A DNA stretch of 53,270 bases, taken from contig NZ_VYIJ01000010.1 in assembly GCF_008709555.1 (NCBI RefSeq), positions 1-53,270 on the forward strand, given 5' to 3'. The notes beneath the pieces were generated by a model. The model had not been told where the DNA came from. It worked only from the letters and a program-made list of their open reading frames with translations, and searched no databases. Source of the DNA: Thermoplasma sp. Lineage in GTDB: Archaea > Thermoplasmatota > Thermoplasmata > Thermoplasmatales > Thermoplasmataceae. A program made the translations under genes and the position numbers. Numbering within the stretch: the first letter of the stretch is position 1; the number at the start of each line of letters is the position of its first letter. Shown piece after piece: positions 1,868-39,400 of the stretch.

Positions 1868-2218
1868 GTGAAGGAATTGGATAAAGGAGAAACATGCCCT
1901 ATCGTTGAGGCGATCAGAGAAGTTGGAAATGAGAATGACCTGCTTGTTATAAGATTCCTGTCCGATGGGAGCCTTGGCTTCAATGAGATGCTCAGGATGG
2001 CAGGGACTATGAGCCCTAAGACGCTTTCTAACACTCTTAAAAGGCTGCAGGAAAAGGGCATAATAGTCAGAAATATTGTTTCTACGCAGCCTTTTCGCGT
2101 GGTCTATTCACTCACCCAAAAGGGGATGGATCTTAAGATTGTTCTGAACGATCTGAAGGCCTGGGGATCGAAATGGTTGATGTCGTCAAATCCATATTCT
2201 CTGACGGATAACCGGTAA
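1868..2218 (+). CDS. HxlR family transcription regulator
   Basis: A 116-residue winged-helix protein of the HxlR type. It contains the family's CPI near residue 10 (the Cys is often the redox-sensing residue), the helix-turn-helix segment GFNEMLRMAGTMSPKTLSNTLKRL, here split over residues 37-60, and the wing VVYSLTQKGMDL. It starts at GTG 1868; a TATA-like box some 25 bp upstream suggests a leaderless transcript. It is divergent from the YceI-pirin pair, so local control of those genes, possibly redox or electrophile responsive, is a reasonable inference. Confidence 0.88.
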   Translation: MKELDKGETCPIVEAIREVGNENDLLVIRFLSDGSLGFNEMLRMAGTMSPKTLSNTLKRLQEKGIIVRNIVSTQPFRVVYSLTQKGMDLKIVLNDLKAWGSKWLMSSNPYSLTDNR

Positions 2219-2307
2219 TGAAAACAGATATCATTCTTTTCCGACCAAAAAAATCGAGACCCGAATTATTTATTAAGAGCAAAATGAAAATGTAAAAAAT
2301 GATAGTT

Positions 2308-38391: not shown

Positions 38392-38601
38392 ATGGCAAGA
38401 CTTGTACTGCACACGAGGGATCATCCCTACGCGATAAAGGTTGGCGACAAAGAGGTTCATATATGCGGCTGCGGCCTGTCCTCGCATAAACCATACTGCG
38501 ATGGAACCCACAAAATAACTGCCGATGAGGGCGATCATATATACATATACAATGCAGAGAAGAAGAGAGAAGAATTCCACTCATTCTACGATAACGAGTG
38601 A
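38392..38601 (+). CDS. CDGSH iron-sulfur domain protein
   Basis: A 69-residue protein with one CDGSH motif: HICGCGLSSHKPYCDGTHK (about residues 23-41), three Cys and one His binding a 2Fe-2S cluster that can be passed on or used in electron transfer. It is the minimal single-domain form seen in archaea and bacteria, without the membrane anchor of mitoNEET. A TTTTAAT element lies about 25 bp upstream. Confidence 0.92.
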   Translation: MARLVLHTRDHPYAIKVGDKEVHICGCGLSSHKPYCDGTHKITADEGDHIYIYNAEKKREEFHSFYDNE

Positions 38602-38643: not shown

Positions 38644-38705
38644 GATCACTCAGCCTGCCCGTCTTTCATCATGCATCAGAAAGATGAATTCTCATCACAG
38701 TGATC
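38644..38705 (-). ncRNA. C/D box guide sRNA candidate
   Basis: On the minus strand this 62-nt unit has all parts of an archaeal C/D RNA: C box GTGATGA (38698-38692), 12-nt guide GAATTCATCTTT, D' box CTGA (38679-38676), 3-nt spacer, C' box ATGATGA (38672-38666), 12-nt guide AAGACGGGCAGG, D box CTGA (38653-38650). The 12-nt spacing is that required for 2'-O-methylation by fibrillarin RNPs. Flanks GATCAC (38705-38700) and GTGATC (38649-38644) can pair as the terminal stem. It lies about 96 nt after the purN stop on the same strand and has no open frame. Confidence 0.8.
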
Positions 38706-38800
38706 CATTCAATGATGCATTGAGTCTATTTTTCTGTTTCCATCATCATTTCTGATCGCAGTAAAAGTACCTTTTTACTTGTTTCTACGTCGATGATCGG

Positions 38801-39400
38801 TCAAGGTGCAATCACGCGTTTTCCGTCGATCCTGTATCTACCGGATATGACGATATTCAGGGCCTGCAGCACCGCGGAATGCTCTATGGCATGTATCTTA
38901 TTTTCAAGCGTTTCTGGCGTGTCCACGTCATCAACCTGTATGGCCCTCTGCAGTATTATAGGGCCACCGTCTATTTCCTCGGTCACGAAATGAACGGTGC
39001 ATCCAGAGAACTTGGAACCGCTTTTGATGACGGCCTCATGCACCTTCATGCCGTAGAAACCCTTACCGCCGAAGCATGGCAGAAGGCTGGGATGCGTGTT
39101 GATTATCCTGTTCCTGAACCTCTGGATTATTGCTGGTTCGAGTATGCTCAGGAAGCCAGCAAGAAGGAAGAAATCTGCATCTGAACTCTCCATCTCCCTC
39201 ATTAGCTCCGATTGAAAATCATTCCCTCTCTTCACAACAACTGTTGAGATGCCTGCTTTCGTGGCGCGATCGATAGCCATGCACTTCCGATCCGCTATGA
39301 CTTTTGATATCCTGGCATCCAGTTTTCCCGATCCTATTGCATCAATTACCGCCTGCAGCGTCGTGCCAGCGCCGGAAACAAGGACACATATGCTCCTCAT
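38801..39400 (-). CDS. purN: Phosphoribosylglycinamide formyltransferase
   Basis: A 199-residue PurN, adding the formyl group from 10-formyltetrahydrofolate (or its archaeal analogue) to GAR. It has LVSGAGTTLQAVIDA at the start, LAGFLSILEPAII, the catalytic His in NTHPSLLPCFGGKGFYGMKV (Asn and His) and the Asp of TEEIDGGPII. Its 3' flank holds the C/D sRNA candidate. Second purine gene in the window after purM, not linked to it. Confidence 0.95.
   Translation of the reverse strand: MRSICVLVSGAGTTLQAVIDAIGSGKLDARISKVIADRKCMAIDRATKAGISTVVVKRGNDFQSELMREMESSDADFFLLAGFLSILEPAIIQRFRNRIINTHPSLLPCFGGKGFYGMKVHEAVIKSGSKFSGCTVHFVTEEIDGGPIILQRAIQVDDVDTPETLENKIHAIEHSAVLQALNIVISGRYRIDGKRVIAP

Follow-up and report, generated by a model that had tools for sequence, protein, structure and literature searches.

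A class-wide box C/D sRNA of Thermoplasmata most likely targets 16S rRNA C1402 with a D guide that covaries with a decoding-site base pair

The locus and its box C/D sRNA

The window, that is, the whole stretch of 53,270 nucleotides that was analysed, is contig 1 of the 46-contig draft assembly of a Thermoplasma sp. An earlier note on this DNA had read a box C/D guide sRNA downstream of purN, and when the sequence was read again all the boxes, both 12-nt spacers, the 3-nt loop and the 6-bp closing stem were found exactly as claimed (Table 1). The RNA is intergenic, lying about 95 bases past the stop of purN on the same strand, where that note had put it, and 42 bases past the convergent ORF of a CDGSH-type protein. 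In each of the five same-genus genomes the sRNA lies between these two genes.

Table 1. Features of the sRNA locus in the window
Feature	Position	Strand	Remarks
Whole box C/D sRNA including closing stem	38644..38705	minus	Match of covariance model R1 at 38644-38704
Closing stem, 5' arm GATCAC	38700..38705	minus	Partner is 38644-38649
Box C GTGATGA	38692..38698	minus	TGATGA invariant across 24 homologues
D' guide GAATTCATCTTT, 12 nt	38680..38691	minus	Lineage-specific; weak candidate target 23S TGAGATGGGTTC
Box D' CTGA	38676..38679	minus	Read from the sequence
D'-C' loop TGC, 3 nt	38673..38675	minus	2-6 nt in regular homologues
Box C' ATGATGA	38666..38672	minus	Conserved in the 24-homologue alignment
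D guide AAGACGGGCAGG, 12 nt	38654..38665	minus	Predicted to pair with 16S ACCGCCCGUCAA; D+5 is E. coli C1402
Box D CTGA	38650..38653	minus	Invariant in the 24-homologue alignment
Closing stem, 3' arm GTGATC	38644..38649	minus	6-bp stem with 38700-38705
purN	38801..39400	minus	Co-directional, upstream of the sRNA; context
Gene for small CDGSH-type protein	38392..38601	plus	Convergent to the sRNA; named from a sequence motif; context
Possible promoter gaaacagaaaaataga	38724..38740	minus	A-rich core about 25 nt upstream of the RNA

By sequence definition the RNA is an archaeal box C/D sRNA. The boxes C (RUGAUGA), D' (CUGA), C' (RUGAUGA) and D (CUGA) follow in this order, the guide spacers are of about 12 nt with a short D'-C' loop between the halves (12, 3 and 12 nt), a closing stem of 6 bp lies outside C and D (k-turn), and a guide is complementary to rRNA with a D+5 target, namely, 16S C1402, with one mismatch (position 3, in Thermoplasma). 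On the minus strand a single T stands between the 5' stem arm, which ends at 38700, and box C, which starts at 38698. A strict C/D/C'/D' pattern with guides of 10-14 nt occurs once in the window, at 38644-38705, while none of 200 dinucleotide shuffles of the full window sequence contains it; with a loose pattern there is one match in the window against 5 in 200 dinucleotide shuffles. The R1 match to 38644-38704 has an E value of 2.9e-16, with this very sequence among the members from which R1 was built. The stretch that is a possible promoter of the sRNA is the same at equal distance in genome G058 and differs in the other three same-genus genomes.

G058, in our reading T. acidophilum DSM 1728, does not belong to the species from which the window comes, since the two sRNAs are 97% and the PurN proteins 84% identical; the earlier note had assumed T. 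acidophilum, and the source is a distinct Thermoplasma sp. The draft assembly is without a 16S gene, the 3' end of the 23S gene and tRNA-Asp. Because it does not contain its own 16S, targets were searched in the same-genus genomes G058, G059 and G061. The 23S gene of the window genome (L034, positions 1-2343) runs off the end of its contig, and the completeness of the assembly is given as 99.8%.

Conservation and covariation of the closing stem

Intact boxes were found in the sRNA of 5 out of 5 same-genus genomes and in most of the relatives read across the class, which bears out the earlier identification as a box C/D guide; the covariation of the closing stem and that of the guide with its rRNA target point the same way. 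A pattern of the D guide was scanned over 84,980 species, with one genome per GTDB species. Among the matches listed, most were chance matches in bacteria and nearly all of those labelled Thermoplasmata lay inside complete C/D architectures. The RNA is conserved throughout the class: R1 had a match in 340 of 400 Thermoplasmata genomes, usually one per genome, and the D guide is 12 nt long in nearly all homologues.

Stem and box statistics were obtained from an alignment of 24 homologous sequences. The closing stem covaries. In the five of its six pairs that were counted, 96.7% of the cells are paired, four of the five show change on both sides, and doubly changed cells number 14, where shuffles give 3.3; the pairing was lost when the alignment was slid by one column. 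A C/D-like RNA at positions 2206-2227 (minus strand) of L146, a contig labelled Candidatus Diapherotrites, carries the D guide CAGACGGGCAGA, which suggests that the same D guide is found outside the Thermoplasmata.

The D guide and 16S rRNA C1402

Exact reverse complements of both guides, which the earlier note had put forward as targets, were searched for in Thermoplasma rRNA and tRNA and none was found. For the D guide that note had expected methylation of the C at position 5 of the complement; the register was right, as it corresponds to 16S C1402, but the exact 12-mer is absent. The D guide is complementary to 16S ACCGCCCGUCA (E. coli 1398-1408, helix 44), and the D+5 nucleotide is E. coli C1402, about C1344 in the 16S gene of G058. 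At the Thermoplasma site, ACCGCCCGUCAA, there are seven contiguous pairs (guide positions 4-10) and a pair at position 2; between them, A at guide position 3 faces C1400 as an A.C mismatch. Guide position 3 is A in most of the Thermoplasma family and G in most related families. Every training sequence of R1 has A at this position, and despite this A-only training the distant homologues found by R1 have G, the letter that pairs with C1400. The D guides of these distant homologues, (U)GA(C/U)GGGCG, are complementary to 16S CGCCCGUCA. Possibly the A.C mismatch with C1400 is protonated and thereby favoured in an acidic cytoplasm.

Members of the order have either G or A at guide position 7. Where this base is A the 16S reads CGCCUGUC with U1404, whose helix 44 partner is A1497, and where it is G the 16S has C1404 and its partner is G1497. 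Among the 37 genomes with both sRNA and 16S sequences, guide position 7, 1404 and 1497 are G/C/G in 27 and A/U/A in 10, with 0 exceptions; the regular expression that collected these homologues presupposed the guide core and left position 7 open, and most guides were also read without it. Thus, the D guide co-evolves with 16S position 1404 and with its partner 1497. The 16S tree for counting the switches was built without the tested columns, and its well-supported branches force at least five independent 1404-1497 switches. All five independent pairs go in the same direction (sign test, p = 0.0625), and this p value is at its floor because only five independent pairs exist. The 16S genes with U1404-A1497 in place of C1404-G1497 are those of L344, L347, L353, L382, L383, L335, L348, L350, L386 and L400.

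In 16S and 23S rRNA together, the D guide of G058 forms its duplex of lowest energy at the C1402 site (-15.5 kcal/mol, the second-best site having -11.7), and in each genome's own 16S this site ranks first in 27 out of 37 and within the top four in all 37. In a single species 784 of 3056 permuted D guides find an equally good site, and since the one-species energy is therefore unexceptional, the claim for C1402 rests on the comparison across species. Ranked by run length in Thermoplasma alone, the C1402 site is one of several partial matches, so the D target could be settled only through the class-wide homologues. As the guide base changed wherever the target base in the rRNA changed, C1402 is the most likely target. 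This covariation is strong evidence for direct pairing between guide and 16S rRNA, and the most likely function of the sRNA is to direct 2'-O-methylation of C1402; it is the pairing that the covariation supports, and from it we infer the methyl group itself.

If the pairing is accepted, the RNA could still serve mainly as a chaperone of rRNA folding, one that draws helix 44 towards another site and directs hardly any methylation or none. Such roles have been proposed for archaeal C/D sRNAs (PMC7994747), the two guides of the relatives bind 16S near 902 and 1402, and co-evolution demonstrates pairing rather than catalysis. Against this, boxes D and C and the 12-nt spacing have been kept, as has the D+5 register, which falls on a residue known to be methylated. 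Moreover, only the D' guide is variable, the D guide being fixed, which is not what a bridging pair would show. We therefore consider a chaperone without appreciable methylation improbable. Even less probable is that the D guide of this box C/D sRNA is aimed at another RNA, for which the best candidate was GCCUGUC in the anticodon arm of tRNA-Asp. This sequence pairs with seven D-guide positions, and either G or A at guide position 7 could pair with its U33. It was rejected because every same-family tRNA-Asp that was read has A/G28-G29, with which guide positions 2-3 clash, and because tRNA-Asp is unchanged where guide position 7 differs whereas 16S 1404 changes every time. The D+5 residue on tRNA-Asp would be C31. 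The anticodon loop of Thermoplasma tRNA-Asp is TGTCGA, outside the pattern TGTCAY. A chance or relic C/D-like sequence without function, to which the lack of an Rfam family at gathering score might point, can practically be dismissed in view of the shuffles, the class-wide conservation and the covariation of both the closing stem and the guide with its target.

The D' guide

Most genera of the order have the D' guide UUCAGCCUU, which is complementary to 16S GCAAGGCUGAA and would place D'+5 near E. coli G902. Genera in which the 16S is altered at this target, to GCAAGACUGAA, do not have the order-typical D' guide. The homologues L312, L365, L366, L367, L370 and L358 (genus codes g2, g5 and g14) have a decayed D'/C' half and an intact D guide; in their genomes, where the 16S was read, the D' target is changed to GCAAGACUGAA.

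Thermoplasma has kept the 16S sequence of the D' target and its D' guide has been replaced. The 16S region around 900 was thus rejected as the Thermoplasma D' target, the guide for that site being lost. The earlier note had predicted a target complementary to the D' guide, and in place of a perfect site in Thermoplasma rRNA or tRNA, of which there is none, the search gave a weak candidate in 23S rRNA. This best site, TGAGATGGGTTC, lies at about 2600 in G058 with D'+5 at A2604, which by our alignment we take to be roughly E. coli 2579. Its energy summed over three species is -32.1, whereas the next 23S site reaches -22.9 and the best one in 16S -24.1, and 21 of 948 permuted D' guides (2%) equal the -32.1. 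The 23S TGAGATGGGTTC site is a candidate only, and perhaps the Thermoplasma D' guide is aimed at 23S rRNA near the peptidyl transferase centre. In the window genome, a tRNA at L029 1501-1598 that ARAGORN calls tRNA-Asn is more likely a tRNA-Tyr (GUA) with an intron, and in this intron AACGGTGAATTC matches the D' guide in part, with one mismatch and one G-U pair.

Proposed function and relation to known guides

Based on these findings, we propose with high confidence that the RNA is a box C/D sRNA that guides methylation of C1402 in helix 44, with D' as a changeable second guide. After transcription, the C/D and C'/D' motifs would form the k-turn and k-loop sites at which L7Ae, Nop5 and fibrillarin assemble, as the boxes suggest. 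The D guide would then base-pair with 16S helix 44 at ACCGCCCGUCA, and fibrillarin would be positioned on the 2'-OH five nucleotides upstream of box D, that is, on C1402, in the P-site part of the decoding centre. The second guide would act near G902 in most relatives of the order and is replaced in Thermoplasma, where it perhaps has a target in 23S rRNA.

No Rfam family matches the window RNA at its gathering threshold. The best match is sR2 (RF01139) with 30.8 bits (E value 1.5e-5, gathering 42), and here boxes and spacing agree but the guides do not; the other scores, with gathering thresholds after the slash, are 21.6/38 bits for sR12, 20.6/36 for sR9 and 20.7/45 for snoPyro_CD. The guide GUUCAGCCUAAG of sR60 (RF01309) aligns with GUUCAGCCUUAG, the D' guide of related members of the order, and the sR60 model scores 41.6 bits on L300 (gathering 50). 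The D guide of sR60 is different, and the window Thermoplasma RNA has lost the sR60-like D' guide.

Cm1402 is a known 2'-O-methyl site in bacteria, eukaryotes and one archaeon (PMC11542601), the archaeal position being Cm1369 of Pyrococcus abyssi 16S (PMC11542601, Table 2), which corresponds to the residue predicted here as the target. In yeast snR70 guides 18S Cm1639 and in Arabidopsis AtU43 guides 18S Cm1645, both equivalent to C1402 (PMC8307265, PMC11542601). These are box C/D guides for the same residue as predicted for the window RNA, which differs in being an archaeal dual-guide RNA of about 60 nt; the likeness is one of target position, and a shared target could produce the same guide by convergence. 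In bacteria RsmI, with RsmH, makes m4Cm1402 (PMC5053481), so that the same residue is 2'-O-methylated there by stand-alone protein enzymes and in our prediction by RNA-guided fibrillarin. A seven-species archaeal survey describes predictions in helix 44 as sparse, and the positions named in its text are those equivalent to 1408 and 1494, not 1402 (PMC4644070).

The RNA type itself is already known, and the new element is its three-way covariation with the decoding-site pair. A guide for Cm1402 can be traced in this way through a whole archaeal class by guide base, rRNA base and the partner of the latter, which is much stronger than the complementarity in a single genome on which sRNA target prediction usually depends. 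Archaeal C/D guides have been described as fast-evolving (PMC7994747). We are fairly confident that the guide described here co-evolves with the decoding centre across the class: the 1404-1497 pair, which is normally C-G, has switched between C-G and U-A at least five times, and on each occasion the guide changed between G and A at the matching position. RNA-guided Cm1402 would then be under strong and continuing selection, and the fast turnover of guides would have a fixed exception. A fixed D guide and a partner D' guide that turns over also provide a clean comparison within one molecule.

Natural ribosomes with U1404-A1497 are a ready test of how far this decoding-site pair tolerates change. 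We presume that 16S with U1404-A1497 should mismatch the universal primers of this region (1392R/1406R type, 1492R), and because of this expected mismatch such lineages may be under-counted in surveys. Position 1404 of H. volcanii 16S is an unidentified modified cytidine (PMC2584109), and lineages with U1404 therefore cannot carry that modification. In L347, L353 and L383 (genus code g8) the 16S has AAGGCAUAAC in place of AAGUCGUAAC, which changes E. coli U1495 to G, and in this genus the decoding site therefore has U.G where U1406.U1495 would stand.
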